From Mesaphorura yosii (lineage: Eukaryota; Arthropoda; Collembola; Poduromorpha; Tullbergiidae): a stretch of DNA of 64,000 nt. A program made the translations under genes and the position numbers. The notes under the pieces were generated by a model that had not been told where the DNA came from, made no database searches, and saw only the letters and a program-made list of their open reading frames with translations. This document shows positions 39,572 to 62,621 of the stretch, one piece after another; the first letter of the stretch is position 1; each line of letters begins with the position of its first letter. Location of the stretch: NCBI GenBank assembly GCA_009869945.1, contig WIXG01000065.1, positions 186,001 to 250,000 of the forward strand, given 5' to 3'.

Positions 39572-41666
39572 CGTCTCGCCTGGGACAATGCAATGAGATC
39601 TGGATCTTGTTTGCGTCGGAGATCAGGAAGAGGGAGAAGATGCTGGTGAGCGTGTTAATTGCCAAATACCGTTTAGCACAATTTGTCTATTTGACGTTGC
39701 TTGAGCACGTGCTAATTAAACGCATGACTTTATTTACTCCCTGCCGTGCGTGTAACCCGATAGCGATCAACCAAAACCCAAGCCAAGAACGAGAACGACG
39801 ACCCAACCTTCCGTCCTCGTTTCGCTTCGCGTGAGCGTGCTCCTGACCTTGAAGACTGAACGTGAGCTGTTTCGGAATCGGAATCCACTGCTGCATGGCA
39901 GGCATGGCCCTGTTCACTACTCATTGGCAACAGGGATTAGTCACTGATCTCTGTTGCTACCATGCCCGAAGATGCACTTGGGCTTTATGCGTGTGATGCG
40001 ATGTTATTTTTACTTCAGGGTGTGTTTATGGCTTGGTCTGTGAGTAAAAAACTTAAAAAATCTTGCCCTCATGCTGTTCATAAAGTGGATCAGTGTTTTG
40101 ATTATACGTTTGTAGGTGAGAAAGAAGTGTTCCCATCATATGCCCGATGAACTAAAGGAAACATGGTTTATTACGTAATTCCCAGTCAGGTCTGTGCACT
40201 CGTACACGTACACGTGTGGTAAAATTCTGGAGCAACGTGATACGAGTAATTCAACAATGAAAGACGACACATTCAGCAATTAATGCATTAATTCCACCGG
40301 AGGAAGAAGCTCTTAATCTTAACTGTCGGACATGCGACCTTGAAGCCCTGGCCGTATTGTTGCATAATATTCGCCAAGGGTAAAGAGGGGTGCAGGTGCA
40401 GGTCAAACGGTCCAAGCATTGCTGCGTTTTGCAATTTTGCACAGCAGATGCACAATAAAATTTCCATGATTCATGAATCATTAGATTAGACTAGACTTTT
40501 CTTGGTGCATTCATAAAGAAATGCCCATTGTTATGATTGGTCTTCAGCTGCTGAATCAATGCTTGACAATTATGATTGTGACAGGTGACAGCAACCTGAA
40601 ACTCTCACGCAACCACGCAATGCAGGCATGAATAATCACGCAGGCACAGAGATTAAAGTGCAATGAAAACACACGAATCATTTGTTCCATGCGACTTGAG
40701 TTGCTTCAACGCAATTAATTAGCGAATGTATGTTATTTACTTCTTTACTGATCACATCGTTCATGCATTAGCGTTTATGTCGGATATGGCTGTTGTGTTG
40801 TGGTTCAGGTCGAGTTAAAGTTCAATCATATTCAATCAAATACAGCCCACTGCTTGATGGCATTGCTGAAGAATCATCCTGGAAGTATGCCAGTTAACGG
40901 TCGATGCATGGTCGATGCTGCTGTGCAAAGTTTTGCAATTTGTTGTGTATCACCTGTCAGCTGTCAGTTTGCAAATCCCAGTACATGTGAAGTTAAGATT
41001 TCTGTGTGATCACTTGCTGTTGCTATTTTGTTATCGATAAAACAGAAGCTTGCAGGAGTTCGCCAGTTCAACTACTCTCCGAACACTTCTGGTCAAGACC
41101 TGAAATCAAGTCTATACCAGCTATTTAGGTGCAATTTCGGCAGTTTGGTGTATTTGGTTGCATTCTTGAAGTATGCAGAATTGCAGCAGAAACGCGCTTG
41201 AGCTCAGGTTTCACTTTGTCCAACTTTGAACGCGGAAGCTTGACGTTCATTCAAAATCGAAGGGAGGGCGGAGATGATTCGTCATCAACAATCAAGGTCG
41301 TAGTGGGTTTAGGATCTCTTCTGACTCATGCCACACTAAATCAAAATATTACCTAGAATGGCCAATAATTAGGTGACCACACCTCTAATCAACTCTACAG
41401 CTTTCTCCACGTCGAGTCGCCGACAGTTCGTGATCTATTCAGGTAAAACCTCTCAGCTTGCCTTGTTTCCATTAACTCTTTTATGGAGTAGACATCAAAT
41501 CAAAAGCCACTCAGCACAGGTCACGTGTTGATTTACTTGCAGTATGTTCAGTAGTGTTTAAGATTATCCAATAAATTCAGCTCATCCAATTTAAAAGTTA
41601 ACTGCCTTAGATTTAATCAACCTCATATTGCGATTTCATTCTCTCCTTTGATGTTTCAGATCGAAA
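39572..41666. other. Intergenic region between scramblase pair and iPLA2
   Basis: Divergent promoters for copy B (-) and the phospholipase (+) must lie here. No exon, RNA gene or repeat of note is recognised. Confidence 0.45.
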
Positions 41667-44600
41667 ATGGCGAGCAACTTTAGTTTCGGTGGCCTTGCGG
41701 GGCGGGTTGCAAGGTCCTTACTCGAGTCAGCAGTGAATGCCACAGCGAACGCGACGAGTACAACTGCAGGGTTAACCAGAACCACATCCATTGACTTCCT
41801 CAGAGTTTCTACCCCTCCTCCTGTGATAGATGAGAATGCAGTCGTCACTGAAATTACTAACATGACGGCCGTCGATGATGTAATTACGACTATTGCGAAT
41901 CATTCCATTGTCTCACGAATGCTAAATTGACGCATACGCATATGCATCTATGCTTTTCAGATAGCGCATTATCCAGTGAGATTCCGCGAAAGCACGTTGA
42001 TTCTGTATGGACCTGTCGACACTGCAGGGCCAAGATCTTTGAAGTACAACATAGTTTTGCATCACCCAATTACCACGGAAAAGATGTTCAGTCTCTTCCG
42101 GGCAAACGATGAAGAGAAAGCAGTGGAAGCATTTATTTTGTACAAAGAAGCCATTCCTCCGTTGATCAATGTCGATCCGATGGTAGACCCTTGACATATT
42201 GTGGTCTTTTGTGGTTAAGAATGATAAATTGTCTGAAACTCGTTTGGAACTTTACAGTTATGTGATAAGAATACTTTGGAGAAAATCTGCCAAAAGCTCA
42301 GGGAAAAGAAAAGTTGGAATGCTATGCATGTGGCTGCTTTCTTTGACTATTTCAAATGTATCCGTGATCCTGGGCTCCACAAGTTAGTCGTGCTAAGATT
42401 GTTGGGCTGACCGAGTTGAGCATATATTGGGCATAATGAATGTTTTATTTTGTAGATTCATCAACATACAAGAAGCAATCGATTTGAAATCTCCCCTCCA
42501 CATTGCGATTAGTCAAAAGAATCTGGCTTCCGTTACTGAGCTACTAAATTTAGGGGCTTCGTTGGATCTTAGAGATCTCAAAGGAAACTCTGTGATTCAT
42601 TTAGCAGCTGCGGAATCCACGCCACAAATTCTAAATGTAATCTACCCTGAAACAGCAAGCTTCAAATTATACAAGAATTGTTTTTCTCTTTCTTTTATAG
42701 TCAGTGCTGGGTAAATTGCCTGAGAGTTTGACACCGCTGATTAACGAGGAGAATCATGATGGATTCACACCCATACATTTAGCTTGCAAAAACAGTAACC
42801 CCGATGTGATTAAGGTAAATTGCATGGAGTGCTTGGTGGCGATGTGGCTGTGATATATAGCTACGACTTGCTGATTTGTTGCCTAACAATTTGCGTAGTT
42901 GGTCATGCTATGCCTTTTGTCTCACACACTAGGCCATACCGATTAACAACGCCCAAATGATTTGCAAATTGGTGATTTGTTGCTGATGGCTGAGTTTTAA
43001 TAGCTTCATTTTGCGTTTTTTTTATTTGCATCCTGCTTTGCCTAGAATCTTCATAGTCGTGGAACTGACCTTAGTATTCCCTCTCGTGAGGAAGGATACG
43101 CTATTCATATTGCCGTTGTAGCTAAATCAGTTTCTGTAATTCAGGAATTATGCAAGCTAGACCCTGATCAAATCTTGAAAAAGGTAATCCATAATTTTAT
43201 TTTGTTTATTAACCATGAATATTTGGCAGGGTTTTAATTTCTTTCTATTTCTCACCTTGTGCAGCATCCTCAGGATGGCTCAAGTGCGCTGCACTGGGCA
43301 GACAGCGCTGAATTAGTGACTCAGCTGCTGGAATTAGGGTGTGATCCGAATATTGTGAACAATGAAGGTGTCTCGCCTCTTCATTTAGCAGTAAGTTTCG
43401 TTTGCAATTTGTAGGTGGATGTGCATTCAAAGCTAATCATGCTAATGTATATATTCTGTATTCAGACAAAACGAACTTGTTTAAAGAGTGCTCTCTCGCT
43501 GCTCTGTCACAAGGCATTCCCGGATATGAAGGACATGATTGGTGAAACTCCATTGCATTGGGCGGCTAAACTTTGTTCTAAGCCTCTCATCCAGGTAAGT
43601 AATTATGATATTATGGAAGAGAGTTGATTTTTTTAATCTTCGAGGAAAACTTAGGTACAAATTTGGTACAGGTGCTGCTAGTCTTTGGAGCTGACGTTAA
43701 CCTAGTCAATAACCTTGGAGAATCCGCTCGTCATTTAATCAGCACCTCGGAGAGATCAGACAAAAGTGGGATTCTCTTCCTTGTTCATGCCGTCGGAGCC
43801 AGAAGGTAAAGAGTGTGGCTCAAATTCTCAAATGCCATGCAATCTGTGTTCATGACAAAGCGGACTACGCATTAACAGGTGTACGGATGGAACGCGTTGC
43901 GCAGACGGATGCTCCCCGGGTGGAGTATCGAATGGATTCCCACCTGAAAATTATAAAGACGATTGGGAACCATGTACATTGCATCAGACACTTCAAGCAT
44001 GGTCTATACGTAAAGAAGTGACTGAACGGGTGAGAAGGGAATCAGGCAACATGAGTCAAGACGAAAACATGGACGTCAATGGAGAACACTCGACACTTGG
44101 GTCGACACGAAAGTTAAAACGACAAGTGTCACCTGGATCTCAGCTAGGCGGAAGATTACTTTGTCTAGATGGTGGCGGCATTCGTGGGCTTGTTCTCACG
44201 CAAATGCTCTTCGTATTAGAACAAGTACGCAAAGAGATACCAATCATTTCATGCGTTTCATCTTTGAAACATTCTTTTGAAATGCTGTTTCCAGGAATTC
44301 GGAATGCCACCAATCGAACTGTTCGATTTTGTAGCAGGTTCATAGACGATTTGGATTGTGGGCAGGGTACTACAAGTTTCGAAATAATTCTGGATCAATC
44401 TCTATATTCATTTTTCAGGCACGTCAACGGGCGGAATTCTAGCGTTGGGTTTAGCATGTGGGAAATCTGTTTTCAGTCTCATGTGCCTGTATCTTCGTCT
44501 GAAGGACCAAGTTTTCAGTGGTTCTCGGCCATACAAGTCCGAAGTGATGGATGCATTCCTGAAGAGAGAGTTTGGCGAAGAAAGTACAATGAATAGCATT

Positions 44601-45723
44601 CGTCGTCCACGGTAAGTGCAATGTAAATGATGGAAGCATGATATGCGAGTTTTGACAGTTCTGAGTGAGTTGAACCGATTGCAACATCAATCAGGGTAAT
44701 GGTCACGACTGCGTTGGTCGATCGTCGTCCTGCTGATTTGTACCTTTTCCGAAATTATTACTCCCCAAAAGCGGTAATTGACGGGCCTGGCCAGGACGCA
44801 CTGCGCCCTGAAAACGTTCGAATTTGGGAAGCCGCAAAGCGAACAGGTTCGATTGAACAACTAGTACTCACCCTAATGTGAAAATCTTAATCTCAATTTC
44901 ACAATATTTTTGTCAAACAGGCGCAGCTCCTTCGTATTTTAGACTCGATGGAGGTGGATGGGTGGATGGTAATGAATGACATCGCCTACTGCCAAGCGGT
45001 TATAGTTAGCGCAGCTAATCTAACGGCCTTCCTCTTCCTCTACACAGGCGGTTTGATAGCAAACAATCCGACGCTCGACGCAATGACGGAGCTTATTCAA
45101 CTCAGCTCTGCTTTAAGAAGCATGGACAGCACTTATGACAGTAGCAGGCCCACCCCATCAGTTGTTGTTTCGCTTGGCACCGGAATTCAGCCGTCTGAAA
45201 ACGTGAATACAAGTCATTTCGATATTAGCATGCCAGCTGGTATTTTCGACGTAGTTACAAAAGTTCCTAAAGTCAAAGCGCTGATTAACCTTCTCATTGA
45301 CCAAGTAAGTACAGAACTGCCGAAGCGTTGAGAATTTACTGCTGCTTAACTTTTGCGCTTTACATTTTTACATTCCCAGGCCACGCAGACCGAAGGACAA
45401 GTGGTGAGAGTCTGATTTTATTCGGATATGAAATAGAAATCATTCCGTACACTCGGAACTTACATTTGTTCTGTTATCTGTATTTCAAGGTCGAAAGAGC
45501 AAGAGCGTGGTGTTCTTCGCTCGGAGTGCCATTCTTCAGGTTTTCCCCACAACTGACGAAATTCGTTGAGCTTGACGAAACTAACGACGAGATCCTCGTG
45601 AATTTAATGTGGGAAGCGAGAGCCCACATGGTGACTCACAGGCACGAAATAATCCAACTGAAGCGTACGCTGTTGGAATGCGCCAGCCCAGTTCCAGTCA
45701 ACTGTGATTACGACGAGAATTAA
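41667..45723 (+). CDS. PLA2G6: Group VI calcium-independent phospholipase A2 (iPLA2)
   Basis: Seventeen exons: 41667-41909, 41961-42182, 42258-42382, 42456-42636, 42701-42814, 43046-43183, 43265-43390, 43466-43594, 43672-43805, 43879-44224, 44295-44337, 44419-44611, 44695-44846, 44921-44968, 45048-45304, 45380-45403, 45490-45723. They give 902 residues. About seven ankyrin repeats span residues 200-480 (KSPLHIA, GFTPIHLACK, SSALHWA, GVSPLHLA, GETPLHWAAK). A patatin domain follows: glycine loop DGGGIRG from Asp568, nucleophile GTSTG with Ser603, and the dyad Asp731 in VDGGLIANNPT. C-terminal blocks RPADLYLFRNY and VERARAWC match group VI enzymes. It hydrolyses sn-2 acyl chains of phospholipids in membrane remodelling and mitochondrial upkeep, and assembles through the ankyrin part. 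The first intron uses gtctca, a weak donor, so the first 81 residues are least certain. Exon 1 contains an Ala/Thr-rich stretch with NATANAT. It is convergent with RRN3. Confidence 0.93.
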
Positions 45724-46066: not shown

Positions 46067-46072
46067 TTTATT
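46067..46072 (-). promoter_or_regulatory. Poly(A) signal AATAAA overlapping the RRN3 stop
   Basis: On the minus strand the sequence reads ATATGAATAAAAAG: the last A of the TGA stop is the first base of AATAAA. If used, the RRN3 3' UTR would be only 20-40 bases. Confidence 0.5.
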
Positions 46073-48714
46073 CATATATCCATGAACTCATCATATTCTT
46101 CTTTGACATCCGTTTTAAACTTAAAGGGATTTCTTCCATTGCAATAGAAATGCGTACTTCGGAAGCTGTGTTTATCCGTGAAACTCGTGCCGAGTTCCAT
46201 TTCAATAGAGTCTTCATTGTCTGCTGGATGCGAGCCTCCTTGTTCGCTTGACCATGATTCTGTCTTCTCAATCTTTAAATCTTCGTAATATTCTTCATAT
46301 ATTCTATAAATAGGGTCAATCCATGATATCGACCTGCACAAGATGATAAGAAATTTAGTTTCTAGAAGAGTATACAGAAAATGCATGAGAAGCTTTCAAA
46401 TCTTGCACATACCTTCTTAAATAAAACTCATCAAACGGGAAAAATAGCTGTAATAACTCTACAAGTGGCGCCGTGCTTGAAGTTGGATCATTTGTTAAAT
46501 TCATCGAATCCGTTGATATTAATGGTATTGTGACAGTCTGATTCCTTTCCAGTACCGTGTGGCAGTACGAAATCTGATGTTGATGCGCGGCTTTGACGAA
46601 CGCCACTGCGACATCATCGTTACAGACTTTTAATGGGTTTAGATCTGATGTGACCAGTCGGCCTAAATTCAGAGTTCTTGTAAACGCCGTGCCTGGAATA
46701 GAAATTAACAAGGGTCAGAAATAACACAATTTTCAGCATAGTAAATACTTTCCACAACCACTTACATTTCCTACTTCCAATTAAATCTTTGTTTCTAAAC
46801 GCGAATACGTAGAAAATTGTTTGGCAAAAAGCATAAAACACTCCATGGGCTTCGATGTTTACATTTGACCAATCACAAACTGACACTTTCTTGTCAATGT
46901 ACTCATTTGACCAATCCGCAAGTCTTGTTAGCCATCGCTTCATGGTTCTGTTGATGAAAACGAGTAACGAGATGAGTTTTGTAGAGAGAGAAAGGAAAGG
47001 ATTTGCAAGTATGAATTGATTGCTCACTTGACGGTAATGACAGACGATCTTGATAAAATTCCCGAAATATAAGCTGCGGATTGAATACGAATTCCTTGCG
47101 ACGTATTGAGAGAAATGGCTTTTCTCCACAAAAATTCTAACATGCTTGTAGCAAATTTTGGTCTCAAACTGATGAGATAAAAGTAGAGGTACTGGACATT
47201 GACCACTCCAAAAGTCGGCAGTATTTCTGACTCGAATACAGATAGCATCGAATTGAAGAAAGACAACTGCTCTTCTTCTCTGTCGTGAGGATCTTCCATT
47301 TCTTCAGGAACTTTGGTGGACATCACCGTACTCAGGTGTTCGAAAACAAGATTGAGGCAAATGTCTACAGTTTGAATTAAGGGACTCTCCATGAACGGGC
47401 TTTCTACGTCATCCATGTCCATTGGATTATACGTTTTTCGACCACCTTTCTCGTTCTTAACTTCAAAGCTGTTCTCGAAGTATGTTCTGTAGCACTCTTC
47501 AATATCGTCCCTTGGAATGTGCACATCAATCCTAGTTAACCTGTCAGGGAAGGAAATTGTTAAGATATTAAATATTAATAGTTAACGGCGGCCCTACCAA
47601 CTATACGAATTCCTTCAAACTTACTTATGAATAATGAGATGTAAGATTTGCAACTGACATTCCGGGGCATAATTCAGGACTTCCAATAAATTCTTCACGT
47701 AGCAATAGTGGACGTGTGGGCTTTTCGTCATGTACGGGTACATGCTAGAGAATACTTTAACACCGGTCTCTTTTCTCCTATAAATTCAAAATGTTTTTGA
47801 TAATAATCTGAGCTCTTCGAAATACACAACTTCAGTGCAGTTACTTACATTGGAAATGCTTCGAATATTTTCCGCAGATTCCGGTGAGCAACTTGGAATA
47901 TATTTTCTTCTGCTAAAGGCACTTCATCTGGTCGCCGGGTAGTGACTTGATTAGTACTTGTTGGTAAGAATTTCATAACTAGGGATTGAATCGCGATGCC
48001 ACCGAATGAAGGCCGTGCTATCAAAGTTTCCGCCAGAAAATCCTCCATTGCCTTAACTATTTTCTTGGATCGAGTGGGCCAGTTTCCGTTCTAGAATGAT
48101 ATCATTTGGAATTATGATACGTGATCTTAAGCCTACTTCGGCTTCGGAAATCTATACATACCAGAATCTGTTGTATTAAAGGGCTCATCTTCTCATCAAG
48201 ATTCTCTAAATCCTTATCTTTGATTTGGTTAATTAGCTTCAGTAACGTTTCGTCCTGTGATCACGAAACAGATGTAATGAATAGTGCGAATGTAAAAGAT
48301 GACAACGCAACTTGAACTTGAACTTACGTTGATTTTATCCCAATCATCCAGACAATTTAGAAGCCTTTTCAGCTGCCGCTGCTGCACGAGCACGTTTTGA
48401 TTAGTGGAGTTAAGGAGATCATCCAGGACAGGCATCAAGTTATTGAGTGAATCAGCAGGCGTAACATCTGATTCCGACTTTGCGAAAGATGCTCTCCCAT
48501 TACTGGAACCAGGACGTTGTTGTGATGGTGGTTGAACCCTTGCAGCTGACTCAGTCTTAGATTTGGCTTTAGACTGTGGGTCACTCGGGGTTTCGGTTGC
48601 ATTGGAACGGCGATGCTTCGAAGATGGTAAGACCGATCCATTTCCCGAACTTTTGCAGCCAGTGCCATTTATTGGAATGGGACACGATGCTTTCTTCCTA
48701 CTGCCTGACAGCAT
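46072..48714 (-). CDS. RRN3: RNA polymerase I initiation factor RRN3 (TIF-IA)
   Basis: Eight exons (48714-48328, 48254-48162, 48090-47849, 47777-47625, 47540-47028, 46947-46766, 46692-46413, 46333-46072) give 703 residues. A basic, Ser/Pro-rich N-terminal tail of about 100 residues precedes the HEAT-repeat body. Recognisable blocks include LIHLIIHKLTRIDVHIPRDDIEE-type sequence, QLSFFNSMLSVFESEILPTFGVVNVQYLYFYL, FLWRKAISLNTSQGIRIQSAAYISGILSRS, VFYAFCQTIFYVFAFR, then LNPLKVCNDDVAVAFVKAA and LLQLFFPFDEFYL. RRN3 binds Pol I (A43) and core factor/SL1 to start rRNA transcription, and in animals it is the growth-signalling switch regulated by phosphorylation. The acidic Ser-rich loop near residue 290 and the acidic terminus are plausible regulatory sites. 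Length is slightly above the usual 650. Confidence 0.93.
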
Positions 48715-49618
48715 TTCTTATGTATGTTATCATTAATGCTTTCACGCGGCAATGTGTTTGCCCAACTTTAAGACGGCTAAAACATTAAAATTGTTTAAAT
48801 CAAGAGATCCACTGCCCAGATTAGAACTCAGGTTGAAAACACAATAGAATACAGGGGGTAATTGGAAATTCCAGCTCCAGACTCCGAACTGGCGGGGATT
48901 AGATCCTAAAACTGCTGACAGACGTTCTTGATTATTTTGACTGATCAGTCCGTCGTACGTAGTTTCAACGTTGCAAAAAGAAATCTGGTATTTCAGCCTG
49001 GGAAAACGTGCTCCTTGGAGCTGACAATACACGTGAGAGGCTGTTCTTTGTGTTGGCTCTCAGATGGCAATGAATGTTTGCCATTTATTTGTGGACTTCG
49101 AAGACTCGCAACATCGCGAGGAATTTAATGCTCTTCTCACTTCACCCCCTATGAATGCCTTAACTCGTGGGTTGGTAGCCCTGAGATCTCGTAATCTCAC
49201 CTCTATGAACAGTATGAAGTTAGTTACGAATTAGTTTGTATTGCTTGTCAATTGTCAATCGTCCGCTCTAACCAAATGAAGCTGGACTGGAGACTGTTGA
49301 GAGTATTAAAAGATTTGATTTATGTACTGAGTACTGACTTCTTTTCTCTGACGCTACTATCATTTATGCTAATTTTTAATCGGTTGGCTGCAATGAGACT
49401 CTCGTGTCCATTTTCCATGAAGCAGCCTTCCGGAGCAATTAGTTGTCTCATACCTCTCGGCCTTCGCCATTGACCAGCTTATCTTGTTCGTCTGCTGAAT
49501 TGAATTTTCACAGCTAAATGGTGATTGTAGTGCTGCTCGTCTACTGACGTTTGTGCGAGAATTTGCAGGCGGGTCTGGAAAACAAACCCGAACCCAATCG
49601 ACCTGGAATCAAGACAAG
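48715..49618. other. Divergent spacer between RRN3 and headless SMC6
   Basis: No coding exon is seen. An acceptor-like atttgcag ends at 49568, 51 bases before the next ATG, suggesting a spliced 5' UTR for the plus-strand gene. Confidence 0.4.
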
Positions 49619-51418
49619 ATGTTCTGGGGTGAGGAACAACTTGGTAGCAATGATAGCAATGAAAGCGGAGAATCGGAATGGGAGGTGGACGAAAATGGAA
49701 ATTACATCAAGAAGATTCCTCCTATTGACCAACGCCAGGCCGATGCCAAGCCAAAGCTAACGGATGAAGATGATCAAGACACACATTCAGCTTCAGTTGT
49801 CCCCAAATTAACTCAACCGTATATGTACTCGAAGCTCGTTGACAGCTTCCATAAAATGAATGCGGCGATCGCCGAACTGGAAATCGAGTGGACAGGATTG
49901 AATAACAAGATCGGTAAGCTGCAAAGACTGCCACGGCTTGACAGCACGGCAGTCTTTGCAAAACGCTCAAGTTTCTTCATTTTCGTGTTTCTTAAATACA
50001 AAGCTAAAATGTGGCAAATCTTGCATTTAGATTCCAAGGCGAAGCAAATGGCACAACTCGTCTCACTACGCTCGAATAGCATTAATATTTTTGGCGATGA
50101 AATGGTAGCGCTGATGAGTATGATTGATAACAACAGGAACCGATTCATCAAACGTCCGAAAGGCCCACTTGGAGCCTGCATTTCTGTGCGGGTACGCAAT
50201 AAGAGGCATTTAATGGCCATTCAACAGGTATACATTCGTTCAGTTATGTTTTTTCGTGGTTTATATAACAGTCCGCGAGCTGGGTCCCATTGATTGAGCA
50301 CATTCTGTATCCGTACCTGTTCATTTTTATTGTCGATAACCGCTACGACCACAACGTGCTGGTCAAAATGATTGACGAGGTGTACGACAGTCTCCCGGCA
50401 TCTTTTCCTGCATCGCCGTTTGATGCAATGCGAAAGCCCGATGTATGGATCACTCAATTCAGGATGAAGGTAGTTTGCTCAATAAAGATTGCATTCAATA
50501 AGTCATGTCGAATATTATACAGCTTCATTAACTTTAGAAACGCAACATCTTCGATGCTCGAGTTCCGATTGGGCTTGGTTACACAACACTGCTGGACATG
50601 CTAGAATTCCGCCACGGAGATCCCGACATATTTAACACCTTGCATGATTTCATTAGGATTGAAAAGATTGTCCTCTTCAATAATGAACACGACGCGTTCC
50701 TTCGTATGGCTAATTCATTCAGGTGAGTGACGAGTGATGTAATTAAATCGCACTCGCTTCGCAAAATTGTCTCCATGAAACCACTAAAATAAATTGTCAG
50801 GCTTCCGCGCAACTGCCAAATCGGGTACACGAAGAACTTCATGAAAGTCATTCCCTATCCGCATTTCCGAACGATTTCTCTGTACAACCCCGCCACGACT
50901 TTTCTGAACGCTGTGTGGCCCGCCCGTAGTCGTGTCCGTGGCGGTGGTGGCCCTCGCAGTTTCGAATCTGCCGTCGCCAGCTCAGATGTAGCGCGAAGCA
51001 GACTCAAAATCTGCCAAATGGGGGTAAAACAGCTGTCATCCCTCATGCAACTGCAATTCCAGCCTGCGGGGCTACGTCCGTCAGTTTCGTCAGCACCACC
51101 GCCAAACCTGATCAAGTTGGCATCGAATGAAGAATTTGATCTCATGAAGGCGTCGCAGTTTTACTTGCTCCCTTCGCTTGGACCTACAATCGAGTAAGTT
51201 TTACAAGCGAACATTAAAAAGAGAAGACTCCGTAGCCCCTATTAATTAATCTGTATTATGCGTTTAGGGCATTCCAGGATGAAATCAACAACCTTGTCAT
51301 CGAGCGCAAGATACACGTAATAATCATGAAAATGAAAAGGGAGACACGACTGAATGTTTTATCACAGATCGAGTTGGTCAAGGAGCAGCTGGAAATAAAT
51401 GAAAGCTCAGAATTTTAG
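49619..51418 (+). CDS. Headless SMC6 paralogue: stand-alone SMC hinge protein
   Basis: Six exons (49619-49913, 50031-50227, 50272-50469, 50538-50722, 50801-51193, 51268-51418) give 472 residues. The N-terminal 60 are acidic and disordered (NESGESEWEVDENG). A short coiled-coil stub runs about 70-120, followed by an SMC6-type hinge (FIKRPKGPLGACISV, LIEHILYPYLFIFIVDN, VPIGLGYTTLLDML, RIEKIVLFNN, LPRNCQIGYTKNFMKVIP). A second stub (AFQDEINNLVIERK...) ends the protein. There is no Walker A, signature or Walker B sequence, so no ATPase head. Exon for exon it matches SMC6 exons 6 (end) to 11 of the next gene, with the same five intron phases (1, 0, 0, 2, 2). The hinge exon carries an extra 85 or so Ser/Pro/Gly-rich residues. 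By analogy with hinge-only proteins such as plant DMS3 it could bind an SMC hinge, but this is inference. The first intron (117 bases) lacks a stop; it was removed by homology. A poly(A) signal is at 51594. Confidence 0.82.
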
Positions 51419-51593: not shown

Positions 51594-51599
51594 AATAAA
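51594..51599 (+). promoter_or_regulatory. Poly(A) signal AATAAA, headless SMC6 gene
   Basis: The hexamer 176 bases after the stop supports an independent transcript rather than an alternative 5' part of SMC6. 51600-52250 is otherwise spacer, with an acceptor-like cttacgcag ending at 52241. Confidence 0.55.
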
Positions 51600-52250: not shown

Positions 52251-55200
52251 ATGTCAGAATCACCGAAGAGAAGCAGTGATAGCGAGAATATTTCAAGCAG
52301 TCCTAAGAGGGCTAAAGTCATGGCCCAGTCTCAGCCTCTGTCGCATAGGAAGGCGCTCAGTGGGATTCCGTGCCCTTCGACTCGAGTTTCGTCATCTCAA
52401 GGGTCAAGACCTCGCAGGACTACTACCACTCCTGCTGATGACATCGCTAAGACAAACGAAGTGGCTGAGCTGTTACGAAGTGCGATGAGAAAGACGCACA
52501 ATGCTCAACCCGAACCAGATTTAGGCCAACAAATTGAGGTTAGTTACACTAACAGACAGTGTCAGTCAGGCCACTGTCGCTGTGCGCACTGCTCACTCCT
52601 GTTACAGCCATGCTAACTCAACCTGTGCCTTTGTTCTGTCTACTTTAGGCTAACATTGTGGAACAAACCTCTGGCATAATTAAGACTCTTCGACTTTACA
52701 ACTTCATGTGCCATAAGGCGTATAAGTGCGACTTTCATCCCAACCTAAACTTAATTACTGGTGAAAATGGATCTGGCAAGAGTGCTGTCTTATCTGGTAT
52801 TCTGGTGGGCTTGGGAGCTAAAGCTCTCACAACTGCTCGCACGAAATCTATAAAAGGTACGATTTTTCTTCGTACAGTCTGGTACAGTATGCAAACTCTT
52901 TCGTTAGTATCGTCAGTCAGTCTAATTCTAATTGCTTTGTCCAATTTTCTAGATCTTGTCAAAACTGGAGAGAACTTTGCCAAAATTGAAATTGAACTCA
53001 TGAATCGTGGATTGCTGGATTCTGACAAATACAGCGAGGTGATCACGATTGAGAGATTAATAGACAGCAGAGGTCCCTCCTCATACAAAATTCGCAGCTT
53101 CGGAAAATGGCGACCTTTACGAAAAGCCGAGCTTGACTATATTCTAATGACCTTGGGGATTCAGCTGGAGAATCCGGTTGCAATTTTAAATCAGGAGACT
53201 GCAAGAAGCTTTCTTCGCTCTAAAGATCCTAAGGACAAGTGAGCAATTTGAGTCTATCTCCTTTCTGTTGAGTTGACTCTTCTTTGTGGCTGAACTTACA
53301 TAACTTACATTTAGAGGGATTTTCTGCTTTCACTTTTTGTTAGATACAAGCTGTTTTATGAAGGAACTCTCTTGAAGTCATGCGATGATCTTTTAAGAGA
53401 CAGCAAGTCGAATATTGAGGCGTCAAGGGAGAACTTCGAGAAAACTAGGGAGGTATGTTCAGGCACTCATCCGTATGTGTCGCACAAATAATTGGAGAGA
53501 ATATGATATATGTGTCACAGGTAATTAACGCCCAGAATGCTGAAATCAAAAGGCTGCAGAACCTGATGCGAAAAATAGCCGAAGTTGACGAAATGAAGAA
53601 GCATGTGAAGACTTTGGAAGTCGAGGGTGCTTGGGCCAGAGTGAATGTTTCAGAGCAGGCAATCGACTCATGCAAGAAGAAGGTGGAGGAGAAGGACCAA
53701 AAGATAAAAAAGTTGGAAGAGGGACAGGAAAAATTGCTGCAGCAGCAACAAGTGCTTATTGATGAAGCATCGTAAGTATTCTAGTAATTTTTAGTACTTC
53801 CTATCAGAGATAAGAATAATATCATTGCCAAATCCGGAAAGGAAGTGCACCGGACATTGGTTTGGATCATTGAATCTCTAACGCTAATAATTCTTTTTCT
53901 TCCTTCAGGCCGACTAGCCGCCAAAAAGAAGAGTTGAATAAAGAATTGAAACTTAAGCAATCTGAATATGAAAACGTTCGTCGCGAATGGCAGACACTTC
54001 ATAAAGCTCTGGCTGAGCACAGAACAACGCTTCGACTTGGAAAGCCTCAAGAGGAAAAACTGAGAAATGGTGTTCAAAAAATCGAAAGCAACGTTGAGAA
54101 ACTGAAAAAGATTTCACAGGAAGCAGAAGAAGCATGCAGGCGTGAAGTCACTGAAAAGAAGGAACAAATGGAGATGGAGAGAGCAAGACTTGCTTCAGAA
54201 GTAAATACACTGAAAGCTGATGGGCAGCAATTCAGAAATGGGGCGGATGTCTGCAGAACAGAATTGGTGAATCTTGAAAGAAAGATGTATGAACTCAGCC
54301 AACAATTAAGTAAGTCCTTTTTTAATGGATATGGGTAAACCATATCCATTAGTCGGTATTCTAATACTCCCATGCACAAAATCTCTGTTCTATTGTTAGA
54401 GCGTTTAAACGATGAACTAAAGGACCTGAACCAAAATAGGGTGAACAAGTACGCAGTATTTGGCCCACAAATGGAAACTTTGATTGCGAAAATTAAAGCA
54501 AATCAAAACAGATTTCGCAAACAACCACGCGGCCCTTTCGGTGCTTGCTTCACGGTGAAAGTTAGTAAAGTTTGAACTTTGTTTCTTGACTTCCTTCCCG
54601 TACATTTTTTGGGTTTCTGTCACTTGAATATAATTTTTGATTTTCTCTCCAACTAAGGATAAAAAATGGGCAGCTGTTATCGAACATGTTATCGGTGGAG
54701 CTTTACATACTTTCATCGTTGATAACTCTGAGGATTCGACGTTGCTCAACACACTAATTAAACAAGTTCATGGAACAAGAGACTCGATGGGAGGTACTGG
54801 AGGAAGAGATTCGATGGGAGGTGCAGGAGGCAGACGGCCAAATGTGTTTCTCATGGAATTTGGCACCCAGGTATGTTCAAATTCCTCTTATACGAATTGC
54901 AAATGAAAGAAATTTGCTTATCTTCTCTGGCTGCTCTGGTTCTCCTGTAATAGGCGTACGACATTTCAAGAGGACGGGCAACAATGAGAAGTCACCCGTC
55001 GATTTTGGATATGCTCAACGTAGAAAATGACGACTACGTTATCAAGAATGCTCTCTGTGATATGGTCAAAGCTGAAAGAATTTTGCTATTTGAAAATAAG
55101 GTTGACGCCTTGGAAGTTTTGAAAGACTCACATGCTCCAGGGTATGCATGCTTGTGCTTCATTTTGGAATTGGTGAAATGAAGTAGCAACCTAACGCATA

Positions 55201-57588
55201 AGAGTAATAAAATTCTTGATTTAACTTCAAAGGTTTCCTCGAACCTGCATAGCTGGGTTTTCCTTAGATTTCTACAAAATTTCACCAGATCCTGGCTTCA
55301 GAGCAGACGTTCGACGTCCGACGCAGGCTAAGTACTTGAGGATGGATACTGGAGATAAATCGATGTAAGTACCCAGTTGTGATTGTGACAGCATATGACA
55401 ATAAGGAAAGCTAAGTAAGGCAAAATGTAAGTATATGTAACCCCAATCCAACTAATTTTGGTTGTGTTCAGATCATTGAAAGACGAAATCATGGCTCTGG
55501 AAAACCAATGCAAGCAGCTTCGCCCTTTGATAGACACTAAACGCAAAGAAGAAGCTGAACTTCGAGCTGAGTTTTCAAGACGGGACGAAAAGCGTGCGAA
55601 CTTGCAAAGAAAATGCCACCAACTCGGCATGGAAATTCAGTCTTTAGTTGCGAAAACGAGTACGCGCACAACTGATGTAAACAGTTATGTAAGTATTGAT
55701 TATATACCAGTATTAATCGTATAATTGGTAACGAAGTAAGAAACCGAAACCACCCTTTATTCGTTTGTTTGCCTGCAGATCGAGGAATTGAATGATATGC
55801 AAAATGAACTCAGAGTTGTAGTGGAGGCCAATGAAGCGGCGAAAGAGTTCATAAACGAAAATAAAATTAAACTGGAAGAACTAACTGCTAAAAAAGGAGA
55901 AGCTGAAAACGAGGTTCAAGTGGTTCAAGAAAAAATTTCTAATTTTGAAGGAAGTAAAGACCTTCTGAAAGGAAGAATTGAGAAATTAAACACGGTAATC
56001 AATTGAGTCCGAGCAATACTTTCAAAATTCAAAAGTGTGCTTTTCTAAATGAATGTTCTGCTAAACTCTTCTACAGTCACTTCAGAAATTCGTCAGTTTA
56101 GTTAGACAAGCTAAGGCTGATAAGGAAGTACTTGAGAGGGATGTACAAGAAGCCGAGCAAGAATCACAAACTCGCGTTGCAGCTGCCGAAGCTCTTGGGG
56201 AGAAAGTTGAAACTAATCGGTAAGTGACGCCGATATGAAAGTTCACACTGGGCGTTGTTTACGCCGCCGTGACCTGTGGAAATCTTATGATGAACAAATG
56301 ACAATCCAACGTTGAGGCTAAAATGATAGCATCTTGATAGTAGAACTGAAGAATTGTTTCTTGGTTTAATGTCGGTGTCCAAGTGTGAATCCAAATGTGA
56401 AGTGTTTCATTCTTAATGCCCGGTTTAACTTCCCATGACAGAAATCCTAACGAAATCAAATCGGAGTTGGCGACATGTCAAGCGAAGATTACCGAAGCGG
56501 AGAAACATCTTGGGGACAAGAGGAGGATTGCGACGGAGCTCAAAGAAACGAAGAATAAGTACGAATCCTTCCAAGCGGACTTCAGAGTCTGGTACAGTTT
56601 GTATTTGGTGAGTCAACAGTGAATCCATCTTACTGTCTTTACTTTTTTGTGGCATTGCTAATCAAAGCCTTGTCGTGCACTCTTGCAGACTCTTCTTGGA
56701 ACCATCAGATCTCAAGACAAGCTGTTCCAAAGGTCGGTGACAACCATCACAACTTCACTTCAGACATTCTTCAAAGGATTGATTGGCTACAGAGGTTATC
56801 AGGTAACTGAGTGACTGATTCTAACTTCCAATAATTTCAAGTCTATTATTGGCTTTACCAGTTGGTTTAGCATTTGATTTAAGTACTTAAATCCCTTACC
56901 CTGCGTTTGTTTAACATGATCTCTATCTCCTACAGGGTACCTTAACCATTGATAACGCCAGAAAGGAACTATTCTATTTCGTTTGCCCTGACGGAGAGGC
57001 AAGTTCTCGTATCGCAAAAGTCATGAGTACAAATGACACGAAAGTTATCAAGTACGTTTTCAGACTTGCTAAAATGAAAAAAATGGTTCTTATTCTAATT
57101 CTTGACTTAAAACGAATAGAAATTTCTTGGCGGAGTACGGTATGGGCCTTTCTGGAGGCGAGTGCTCATTTTCGACCATATGCTTCATCGTTTCAATGTG
57201 GCAAGCAATGCAGTGTCCGTTCTTCATGCTGGACGAGTTCGACGTATTTATGGACGCGTTCAACAGGAAAGCGAGTCAAAACGCCTTGATATCTCATGCA
57301 AAACGATATTCTGGTCGTCAATTCTTTCTCCTTTCTCCGTTGGAGCTCACTGAAATGCCGGATAAGGACTCTGCAAAAATTTTCAAGTAAGATTTACTCT
57401 AAATATAAAAATTTGTTCCCCAAAACATCTAGTTGCGATTAACACTTGCTTCCAACAGGCTGTACCCACCGAACAGGACCGATCAAAATGGTTCCAGACG
57501 AGTGGATGAAGAACAAGAAAGCTCAGATGGCGTAGCTTCCACTCCAGAACCTCCGGCTGCTCCTCTGAAACGCCGAAAACGAGTTTAA
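52251..57588 (+). CDS. SMC6: SMC6, structural maintenance of chromosomes protein 6
   Basis: Eighteen exons: 52251-52538, 52649-52856, 52953-53238, 53344-53452, 53521-53771, 53909-54309, 54400-54560, 54658-54870, 54954-55141, 55233-55364, 55472-55688, 55779-55994, 56077-56219, 56442-56607, 56689-56802, 56936-57051, 57120-57386, 57459-57588. They give 1201 residues. A basic Ser-rich tail of about 100 residues precedes the N-head, with Walker A GENGSGKS at 134-141. Coiled coil, hinge (about 515-745) and the returning coiled coil follow. The C-head has signature LSGGECS at 1080-1086 and Walker B MLDEFDVFMD with Asp1108/Glu1109. SMC6 pairs with SMC5 and the NSE proteins to compact DNA and resolve recombination intermediates. 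The signature Cys1085 replaces an arginine that, to my knowledge, is nearly invariant. The hinge has a two-copy RDSMGG repeat. The ATG at 52251 follows a splice acceptor; the frame is open upstream to 52173. Confidence 0.95.
54324..54350. repeat. Perfect 11-bp inverted repeat in SMC6 intron 6
   Basis: AATGGATATGG and CCATATCCATT are separated by five bases (gtaaa), beginning 14 bases downstream of the intron's 5' splice site. In the pre-mRNA this would form a stable hairpin close to the donor and could influence splicing. Confidence 0.85.
54778..54831 (+). repeat. Two-copy 27-base tandem repeat in the SMC6 hinge
   Basis: Two in-frame 27-base units encode RDSMGGTGG and RDSMGGAGG, followed by R. 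They differ at three third-codon positions and one first-codon position. The units insert a flexible Gly-rich segment between hinge strands. Confidence 0.9.
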
Positions 57589-59208: not shown

Positions 59209-62200
59209 ATGACTGATATGGAAGCATCTGATCCAATGCAAGACGAGAACGACTTGGACTCGACATCCTCATCTAGTGAAGGTGATACCACCGATTCGGA
59301 GGGTGAGGACAATGCTGGCCAAAGTCCCAAGGAGAATGATGAAGATATGGAGGAGGAAACGGAGAATGATGAAGAACTGCTTGCACAATTAAGTGATATC
59401 AACTATAAGGTAAGGAACGATGAAGAATATCTTATCGATTGCCATTATTTCGTCCGTGACACCCATGTATTTGTGATTCTTTTTCAGTTGAGTGGCGAGC
59501 CATTTTCTTATGATCTCTACGTGGAAAAGATTAAGTTACTGAACAGACTGGGTGATACCGAAGCTCTCCGTGAAACGCGAGAGAAACTCAGTCAATTATA
59601 CCCATTGAACGAGAAATTATGGCTCGATTGGATTCACGACGAGATGAATTTGATGTCAGGCTCAGAAGACCGTGCAAAAATTACTGAGTTATTCGAACGG
59701 GCTGTTAAAGACTATTTATGTAAGTTGCGAAGAATGTCATTTATTGCAAGTAATCCCTCGCTCATTTTGCGGGTTTCTTTCTTCACAGCAATCGACATTT
59801 GGTTGGAATATGTCCAATTTCAACTTGGTGACATTTCCCAAGAAAACGGAATCGAGAGTTGCCGGCAACTGTTCGAACGTGCACTGAGCAGCGGAGGTCT
59901 TCATGTTCCAATGGGAGCGGTTCTTTGGGATATGTACCGTGAATTTGAGGGAGCCGTGCTTGGGATGACTGACCCATCGAAGCTGGAAGAGCAGGAACAA
60001 CGTTACATTTCGCTATGCAAGCGACAACTCGCTGTACCGCTATTTGGTCTAGAAAATACGTACAAACAGCTCAAGTCAAAAGTAGAGATTGACGACCCCA
60101 CCGAAGCCAACTACAAAGCGGCAATGGAAAAACTGAAATCTATAAGCGAATGGGAAGACAAACTTGTAAGCTTTTACCTGTCAAAGCCTACTTAAAATGC
60201 ATACATTCAGTTTGCATTTTGGCTTTTATGCTTAGGTGGATGAAAACATTGAAAGTAAAGTTGATATATACAAGAAGTACTTGGAAGCAGAAAAGGAAGC
60301 GAAAACAAATCCGGCCCGCAGGATTTGTAAGTTAAAGCCTGGCTGCTGAGTTAGAATTCGAAATCACATACTCATTTTCATTGCTGTGTTTGTAGGTTTG
60401 TATGAAAGAGCTCTGGCCGACAACCCACTTGACAGCTCATTGTGGTTAGACTTTTACGAGTACACACTGGGAATCAACTTGGAAGACATGAGTCTTGATG
60501 TGATTACCCGAGCCTCCAGAAACTGCCCCTGGATCATTAATATTTGGACAAACTATTTGTGTCACATGGAGCAACATGGCACAAGTCAAGAAGAAGTTAA
60601 AGGTTTACACTGTAAAAGGTAAAGAAAATTCTTAACATTACTATCTATTGCTTATTGCATTATTTTAGAAACATTTGAAAAAGCCATTTTGTACTGCGCA
60701 ACTGGAGAACAAGCAGGAACACTTTGGCTAAGATACGTTGAAATCTTGAAAAGGCGCATTGACTTTGGCAATCCAAAGGAGGCAGATGTTCAGCTCTTCG
60801 ACAAAACTATTCAGGCTGCTGATCAACATCTTCGCCAACGTAAGTTTTACAAATATGACCTGGTACATTCTTCGGGAAACATGGGTGTCCAATACACGCT
60901 CTCCTGCTTTGCAGTTCTCGAAGAGCCGAACGATATTATTTGTCAGCTACTTCTCTTTCACGCCCGCACCAAAACAACTTTATCAAAATCCATGGAGGGC
61001 TCGAAGGACATTTGGTCTGATATCTTTAAGAGAGGTTATGGGTCACAGTTCAAGGTGTGGTTGTACGCACTCGACTTGGACAAGCAATTCAAGGCTGAGC
61101 CCAAGGATCTGCGAAAAAGATTTGAGAAAGGTCTTGCAAGCGTGAAAGATCATCCTGAGTTGGTCATGGATCTTTGGATGAACTACGAAAGAGATTGTGG
61201 AGACGTGAAATCTATGCGATATTTCGAGGCAAAAATCGCGAAATGGGTTAAGAAAGCCGAGGAAGAATATCAAAATCAATCCAAATCGAATACGAGTATC
61301 GCATTTACGTCGAACAAGCGAAGGGAAGGCTTGGGGTTCAAGGTAAAGAGCTGACAAGCATTATTTATTTGCCTCAACCAGTTGGATTTTTCTCCGATAT
61401 TAACAACGGTTTCTCATTTTTCAACAGAGGCAGAGGTTTAACCAGCAAGATCAAGTTCCTGAGAAGCGTGGTAAATTTGATGCAAATGCCAAGCAAAGAA
61501 AGCCCCTGCAGAACATGTCAATTGACGAGCCAGACAAGCCTAAGTCAGAGTTTAAAGTCCCTCTTCCTCCAAACATACCAATGAAAGAAAAAACTGGAGA
61601 GAAAGACAAGGGTTTATCAATCAGTAAGAAGAAAGCTCCAACAGAAGAATACATACCCGAGGAATGGAAATGGGATCCAAAGAATAATGAAAGGGCCGTC
61701 TTCGTTAGCAATTTGGACAAGGACACAGATGATGTGAAGCTGCGTGAATTCTTCTCTGAGTTGGGAGGAATTGAGAAAATACTGATAGCGCGAAACTTCA
61801 GAGGAGATTCTAAAAAATTCGGATACGTATGTTTCATCACGAAGGTAGCGTGAACTGACTAGCATAACTACAACTCCGGTTTGAACTATGTTCTGATTTA
61901 ATTTGCCTGGTTAAATTTTTAGGATGATGCACAAAAGGCTCTGGCCAAGGATCGACAACCTTTGGGCGGACGACCTGTGTTTGTATCCAAATGCGATCCA
62001 GACAAGTCTAGCCGCACCGCCCAAGCTCCAATCAAATTCAGAACCGGATTGGAGAAGGACAAACTTTTTGTCAAAGGTGAGTTTAGTGAATGATTTAAAA
62101 AGTGTCTGGACATTGCATTGGGCTTCAGCAATCACACATTACGCGCATGCAATATCATTTTCAATTTTCAGGTATTCCTATCACAACTAAGCCCGATGAA

Positions 62201-62621
62201 CTTAGACAACTTTTTGAGAAGTACGCGAAGGTGAAAGAATGCAGACTGGTAACCTATCGTAATGGGGAATCCAAAGGCCTAGCATATGTCGACTTCTTTG
62301 ACGACGAAAACGCACGACTGGCACTAAGCAAGACTGATGGGCTAGAGTTTCAAGGAAGTACGCTGAGCGTTGCGTTCAGCAATCCGCCAAAGAGGCCAAC
62401 AAAGGACGAATTTGCAGGGTAAGTTTCTCGTGAGTTCTACCGCTGTTTAAATCTTCAAGTCAGTTGTTCACAAATGCTTTTTATTAAATAGGCCTTCAGT
62501 TCGCCGTGCGCCCACGATGTTTGTGCCGAGATCCCTGCAGATTGCTTCCAAGTCAGACACAAAACCAGAATCGGCTACTCCAATGAGCAACCAAGATTTT
62601 CGTAATTTATTGAAGAAATAA
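59209..62621 (+). CDS. SART3: SART3, U4/U6 snRNP recycling factor
   Basis: Eleven exons (59209-59409, 59488-59719, 59789-60165, 60236-60326, 60396-60602, 60669-60839, 60915-61342, 61428-61844, 61923-62076, 62172-62418, 62492-62621) give 884 residues. An acidic N-terminal tail (about 1-65) precedes HAT repeats to about residue 540 (WLDWIHDEMNL, IWLEYVQFQLG, LWLDFYEYTLG, LWLRYVEILKRR, VWLYALDLDKQF, LWMNYERDCGD). A basic linker follows, then two RRMs. RRM1 is near 658-732 (AVFVSNLDKDT, KKFGYVCF) and RRM2 near 755-830 (LFVKGIPITT, GLAYVDFF). The conserved end NQDFRNLLKK matches the family's C-terminal LSm-binding tail. SART3 (Prp24-like) reanneals U4 and U6 snRNAs and brings the deubiquitinase USP15 to the spliceosome; it is nuclear and concentrates in Cajal bodies. 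Length is slightly below the human 963. A poly(A) signal is at 62867. Confidence 0.95.

Follow-up and report, generated by a model that had tools for sequence, protein, structure and literature searches.

A hinge-only SMC6 paralogue beside a full-length SMC6 gene in the collembolan Mesaphorura yosii

Partial SMC proteins are already known, among them DMS3, SMCHD1 and SMCL-1. DMS3 belongs to plant RNA-directed DNA methylation, where its partners are RDM1 and DRD1, and SMCHD1, a vertebrate protein, carries a GHKL ATPase. At about 420 aa, DMS3 comprises an unresolved N-terminal tail and a hinge with two helices of about 50 residues, lacks an ATPase, and forms a homodimer (PMC6718625; this and the other papers are cited for the passages drawn on here). 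SMCL-1 of Caenorhabditis, a truncated SMC protein, has been suggested to regulate its parent complexes negatively (PMC5373644). The crustacean Daphnia pulex has two SMC3, two SMC6 and two SMC1 genes, the SMC6 pair lying 165 kb apart, and also nine short SMC1 fragments (SMC1C-K) that are not generally transcribed, some with imperfect EST matches (PMC2680839). The passages of that survey used here mention no hinge-only SMC6 (PMC2680839), nor did we meet one in the literature searched, which was screened by titles and the beginnings of abstracts and mostly excluded subscription journals.

Here we describe a gene of the collembolan Mesaphorura yosii that encodes an SMC6 hinge without an ATPase head, found in a window of 64,000 nucleotides (WIXG01000065.1; C65:186001-250000) whose positions are used below. 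By comparing the gene with the full-length SMC6 gene that adjoins it (SMC6B), with a second full-length SMC6 elsewhere in the genome (SMC6A), and with SMC6 hinges of other species, we hypothesize that it is a tandem-derived, headless SMC6 gene kept by selection, whose product would be an accessory or competitor hinge module, likely acting on the single SMC5 found; to this reading as a whole we assign a probability of roughly 0.45.

The gene, its neighbour and its parentage

The features discussed are as follows.

49619-51418, + strand: hinge-only SMC6 gene, 6 exons
49619..49913, + strand: exon 1, acidic tail (about residues 1-65, net charge -10) and beginning of the N-terminal coil; ends in phase 1, as does SMC6B exon 6
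50031..50191, + strand: exon 2, end of the coil, hub Phe and GPLGAC motif; 161 nt, as in SMC6B exon 7; phase 0 at the end
50272..50469, + strand: exon 3, hinge strands with IEH and FIVDN, start of the linker; ends in phase 0; boundary unlike that of the first model
50538..50722, + strand: exon 4, the linker plus the beginning of subdomain II (IEKIVLF); phase 2 at the end
50801..51193, + strand: exon 5, remainder of subdomain II and about 88 extra residues at the putative Loop C; ends in phase 2
51268..51418, + strand: exon 6, C-terminal coil with the DEI motif, then the stop codon
51594..51599, + strand: poly(A) signal AATAAA, 176 nt past the stop
52251..57588, + strand: SMC6B, full-length SMC6 adjoining the hinge-only gene, 18 exons, 1201 aa
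53909..55688, + strand: SMC6B exons 6-11, hinge part to which the hinge-only gene corresponds
L026, G000:C61:226500-236400: SMC6A, second full-length SMC6, hinge exons modelled

In the best model the coding sequence of the hinge-only gene is 1383 nt including the stop and specifies 460 aa with all codons open; all five introns have GT-AG ends. A preliminary description of the locus had given a protein of 472 residues with an intact frame; the frame stands, and the length is corrected to 460, because the 80-nt intron 50192-50271 falls in exactly the alignment column of an SMC6B intron (the other four introns measure 68-117 nt). The 472-aa model, which retains 36 nt of this intron (50192-50227) and leaves an intron of 44 nt, fits less well and is rejected on that ground. 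The gene was also said to have a start, a stop and a poly(A) signal of its own, and it does: reading on from an in-frame stop at 49496, one first meets an ATG at 49619, the stop codon lies in exon 6, and AATAAA begins at 51594. By eye, an acceptor-like site is visible near 49569, 50 nt 5' of the start codon, with the frame open from the site to the ATG; the gene may have an additional 5' exon joined through it, whose phase, again by eye, would differ from that of SMC6B intron 5. By eye, the neighbouring genes look like an ankyrin-repeat iPLA2 (41660-45723, +), a PP2A B56 subunit (46070-48713, -) and SART3 (59210-62621, +).

On the strand that it shares with SMC6B, the unit ends 832 nt 5' of that gene's start codon, as would be expected if its exons were alternative parts of the SMC6B transcript and the separate gene an artefact of annotation. 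This we consider scarcely credible, for SMC6B has a complete in-frame hinge of its own, its exons 1-5 lie downstream of the hinge-only unit, and the unit has a separate stop codon and poly(A) signal.

The preliminary description regarded the protein as a hinge-only SMC6 paralogue, which homology, intron phases and the intact frame uphold. In blastp it matches residues 520-725 of SMC6B (34% identity over 207 aa, E=3e-36), and in a phmmer search of PDB its first matches, both named SMC6, are 5mg8_B (S. pombe Smc6, E=1e-9) and 9lwi_A (E=6e-9). Up to E=1 there are seven PDB matches, six to SMC6 and one to NNF1 (E=0.16); DMS3 is not among the seven, in a library that may lack DMS3 chains. An SMC6-class hinge sequence is therefore present, the best matches all being SMC6 hinges. 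The intron phases, 1, 0, 0, 2 and 2, agree with those of SMC6B at five of five introns. Introns 1-4 occupy columns identical to those of SMC6B in a MAFFT alignment that was given no intron information; intron 5 agrees by phase and by the DEI motif, its column being displaced (454 vs 398) by an insertion. Exon 5 measures 393 nt vs 132 nt in SMC6B exon 10. The earlier claim that five introns coincide thus holds for all phases and for four of the five columns, and the claim that each exon aligns by motif holds except for about the first 65 residues of the protein and a stretch of about 88 residues in exon 5 (boundaries by eye), which have no clear SMC6 counterpart.

The hinge exons of SMC6A carry the same five phases. 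The intron set therefore predates the split between SMC6A and SMC6B, and marks descent from SMC6 but not which SMC6 was the parent; the coincidence of introns as proof of descent from SMC6B is accordingly ruled out. Over the hinge core the hinge-only protein is identical to SMC6B at 65/190 positions (34%), to SMC6A at 53/181 (29%), to human SMC6 at 46/176 and to yeast SMC6 at 35/146, and SMC6A and SMC6B, identical to each other at 65/181, are slightly more alike than are the hinge-only gene and SMC6B. In five-taxon trees of the core the best likelihood places the hinge-only gene outside SMC6A and SMC6B, which pair at a support of 34, and all three placements survive the AU test (p 0.38 as sister to SMC6B, 0.47 as sister to SMC6A, 0.58 outside both); a longer alignment, also of five taxa, puts it with SMC6B at a bootstrap of 47. 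The trees do not decide, and it is adjacency and best pairwise identity that favour SMC6B as the probable parent. The tandem birth from SMC6B that had been proposed is thus backed by position and by the 34% identity, but not by the three unrejected placements or by phases common to SMC6A. Most likely, an SMC6 gene was copied in tandem and the copy lost the exons for both head halves.

The hinge, the missing head and SMC5

Viewed by eye, the protein consists of the tail (residues 1-65, net charge -10), a coil (about 66-117), the hinge core (about 118-304, net charge +4), the insertion (about 305-392, net charge +6), and a last strand and coil (393-460), so that the hinge is flanked by coil stubs of about 52 residues on the N-terminal and 49 on the C-terminal side. 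The head, a split ATPase of the ABC type (Walker A, signature and Walker B), is absent: a Pfam search finds no ATPase family in the 460 aa, no GHKL ATPase domain among them, and in the 919- and 832-nt flanks of the gene a tblastn search with SMC6B (E<=10) shows no remnant of a head, its single match there being to 12 hinge residues (E=1.6). What had been described as an SMC6 hinge with two short coiled-coil stubs and no head is indeed headless by these searches. Pfam also fails to detect SMC_hinge in the protein, its sole match being a phage family below the cut-off (E=0.15), and family-based annotation could therefore overlook the gene.

A genome search with the protein at E<=10 (the tool scores only the best candidates) returned, among the matches listed, the exons of the gene itself at 6 places, two hinge exons of SMC6B and a weak match to SMC6A, and no second hinge-only copy; the evidence for a single copy is strong, though incomplete in that only best candidates are scored. 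In the same 93.0-Mb genome a 25-nt stretch of TTAGG telomere repeats is matched 40 times, often in overlap, and never in the reversed control, as would fit an arthropod.

Translated exons, read by eye except for SMC6B, give at least one locus each for SMC1 (contig C592), SMC2 (C325), SMC3 (C44), SMC4 (C143), SMC5 (C8), an SMC3-like gene (C42), SMC6A (C61), SMC6B (C65) and Rad50 (C12), these counts being minimum numbers because only best candidates are scored in the family searches. A 157-aa piece of the SMC6B head has strong matches on C65 and C61 only, indicating two SMC6 head loci, and a piece of the SMC5 head has one strong locus. By eye, SMC6A has a hinge, Walker A GDNGSGKS, the canonical signature in LSGGERSF, and Walker B; SMC6B has Walker A GENGSGKS, signature LSGGEC and Walker B FFMLDEFD, and in Pfam its SMC_N is recognised while its SMC_hinge match falls below the cut-off. 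The ABC signature is usually LSGGER; in SMC6B Cys stands for the usual Arg (57120-57386), Walker A and B appearing normal by eye. The divergent SMC3-like gene (L031, G000:C42:292000-301900), besides the canonical SMC3 on C44, recalls by eye the Daphnia SMC3B. NSE4_C, the kleisin of SMC5/6, has matches above the curated cut-off on C176, C414 and C457 (L042, L043, L044), and MAGE (Nse3) has a single match, below the cut-off.

Three Smc6 hub residues, F528, G551 and P552 (S. pombe numbering), are kept in the hinge-only protein and in five aligned SMC6 sequences, and the comparison is confined to these three, the S. pombe alignment ending before interface glycines 683 and 694 and before the fourth hub residue, R706 (PMC5290277). 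In S. pombe, G551R disrupts hinge dimerization (PMC5290277). Of 16 S. pombe positions checked for numbering, 15 carry the letter given in the paper; S. pombe position 587 is Q in the numbering used here and R in the paper (PMC5290277). The pocket in SMC6 that takes the SMC5 latch tyrosine is a hydrophobic-polar-hydrophobic motif (PMC5290277), which the hinge-only protein appears to lack in an alignment that is gapped nearby, having Arg in place of the aromatic. At the latch-receiving position, S. pombe 611, all five SMC6 sequences including that of S. pombe have F or Y; the Arg of the hinge-only protein there, and the Lys at its D609 position, argue against an unchanged SMC5 contact, on an alignment that a shift of one residue, possible with the gaps so near, would alter. 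The I641 position, elsewhere variable (I, V, C, A), is His; E647 and K648 are kept; and the residue at the end of Loop B is, by eye, His in the hinge-only protein, Gly in SMC6B and Glu in SMC6A. The SMC5 of this genome has a latch-like TSYYS, which by eye we take as the S-x-Y latch, and, going by the loop positions in PMC5290277, the insertion of the hinge-only protein probably lies in subdomain II at Loop C, the site of the latch in SMC5. The hinge fold, then, looks intact, and one SMC5 contact appears changed.

These residues bear on what the protein might do. In the reading that we prefer, a protein would be made, would fold as a hinge, and would act by hinge contact as an accessory or competitor: a headless hinge would contact the one SMC5 found, which SMC6A and SMC6B must share, and this contact could limit or tune ring assembly, a role that we propose by analogy with SMCL-1 (PMC5373644). 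It is possible that the protein caps SMC5 in this way; because the latch-receiving site appears changed, we leave the choice of partner wide.

The changed latch-receiving site, fitting a change of partner, would suit a scaffold of the DMS3 kind, the explanation that we rank second and think unlikely, in which the hinge pairs with itself, the stubs, tail and Loop C recruit chromatin or repair factors, and there is no part in the SMC5/6 ring. The anatomy measured by eye (460 aa, with a tail of about 65 residues, a coil of about 52, the hinge and a coil of about 49) is close to that of DMS3; yet the closest sequences are SMC6, which supplies six of the seven PDB matches, and none is DMS3. The positive charge of the insertion (+6) and core (+4) would fit an accessory module for single-stranded DNA, a hinge and stubs binding DNA where repair takes place, with no SMC partner, and monomeric hinge fragments of Smc5 and Smc6 do bind DNA (PMC4434891). 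However, the Smc6 hinge fragment that was shortest proved insoluble (PMC4434891), and ssDNA binding in S. pombe needs the latch arginines of SMC5, which the SMC6 hinge does not supply (PMC5290277), and we judge such a module very improbable.

Coding signal and selection

The preliminary description took the gene to be selected rather than decaying, and three results speak for past selection: the open frame, the pattern of codon-position identity and the behaviour of neutral simulations. No pseudogene marks (stops, frameshifts or broken splice sites) were found in the 460 codons and five introns. Against SMC6B, over 190 codons, identities at the three codon positions are 0.447, 0.600 and 0.326, the second position being the best kept. 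The corresponding pN is 0.459 and pS is 0.825, which is saturated and beyond correction, so a dN/dS value for this pair is unusable; the two full-length genes, SMC6B and SMC6A, give similar figures (pS 0.763, pN 0.458). When the 212-codon core of SMC6B was evolved neutrally (1000 runs per divergence), 108/1000 runs were free of stops at 0.1 substitutions per site, 5/1000 at 0.3 and 0/1000 at 0.5, where mean amino acid identity was 0.37; with an assumed indel rate, 2/1000 were free of both stops and frameshifts at 0.1. Since no neutral core stayed open at a similar divergence, selection has most likely acted on the gene through most of its existence, a test of absent stops being compatible with a recent loss of function.

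Judged by codon usage, the true frame comes out ahead in the whole protein and in all five of its parts, with z values inflated by stops in the shuffles and with SMC6B part of the training set. The insertion is the weakest part (0.02 bits per codon, z 2.15), scoring below 13/13 pieces of SMC6B (0.04 to 0.56) and above 11/11 noncoding pieces (-0.69 to -0.14).

That the gene died recently, or is a fragment that was never expressed and kept its frame by chance, is improbable. Such a fragment would have its precedent in the SMC1 fragments of D. pulex, which are not generally transcribed (PMC2680839), and the saturation of dS precludes a rate specific to the branch. Yet even at 0.1 substitutions per site neutral sequence stays open in only 108 of 1000 runs, and in 2 of 1000 once frameshifts are counted; the splice sites are GT-AG at all five introns; and no other fragments occur among the matches listed at E<=10, best candidates being scored.

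Comparison with known partial SMC proteins

The hinge-only protein resembles DMS3 in placing a hinge within a short, ATPase-free protein of similar length with short flanking helices, which here are putative (PMC6718625). DMS3 homodimerizes and binds RDM1; the hinge-only protein, unlike DMS3, is closest by sequence to SMC6, and its gene adjoins an SMC6 gene. With SMCHD1 it shares being an animal protein that has an SMC hinge without an SMC head; unlike SMCHD1, it has no GHKL ATPase family that the Pfam search could find. Like SMCL-1, it is a truncated SMC duplicate from a lineage that has an additional SMC copy; otherwise it is the mirror image of that protein, SMCL-1 being an ATPase domain without hinge and coil, and the protein described here a hinge without a head (PMC5373644). 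The genome as a whole recalls that of D. pulex in having two SMC6 (SMC6A and SMC6B) and two SMC3 genes, with one SMC1 seen here vs two (PMC2680839). Both have partial SMC copies; those of Daphnia derive from SMC1, not SMC6, are dispersed, and are not generally transcribed (PMC2680839).

A bolder proposal, which we put forward tentatively and with the odds against it, is that the gene is an animal counterpart of DMS3 that arose independently from SMC6, its enlarged Loop C having become a new docking arm or latch, and that the product acts as a dedicated regulator or scaffold beside two full-length SMC6 proteins. If expressed, the gene would be a natural separation-of-function SMC6, a hinge without the motor, which could regulate the SMC5/6 chromosome-repair machine and through which the solo role of the SMC5/6 hinge (partner choice, ssDNA contact and ring gating) could be asked about directly. 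Its expression would also suggest that headless hinge proteins have evolved repeatedly: as DMS3 in plants, as SMCHD1 in vertebrates, and from SMC6 in the lineage described here.
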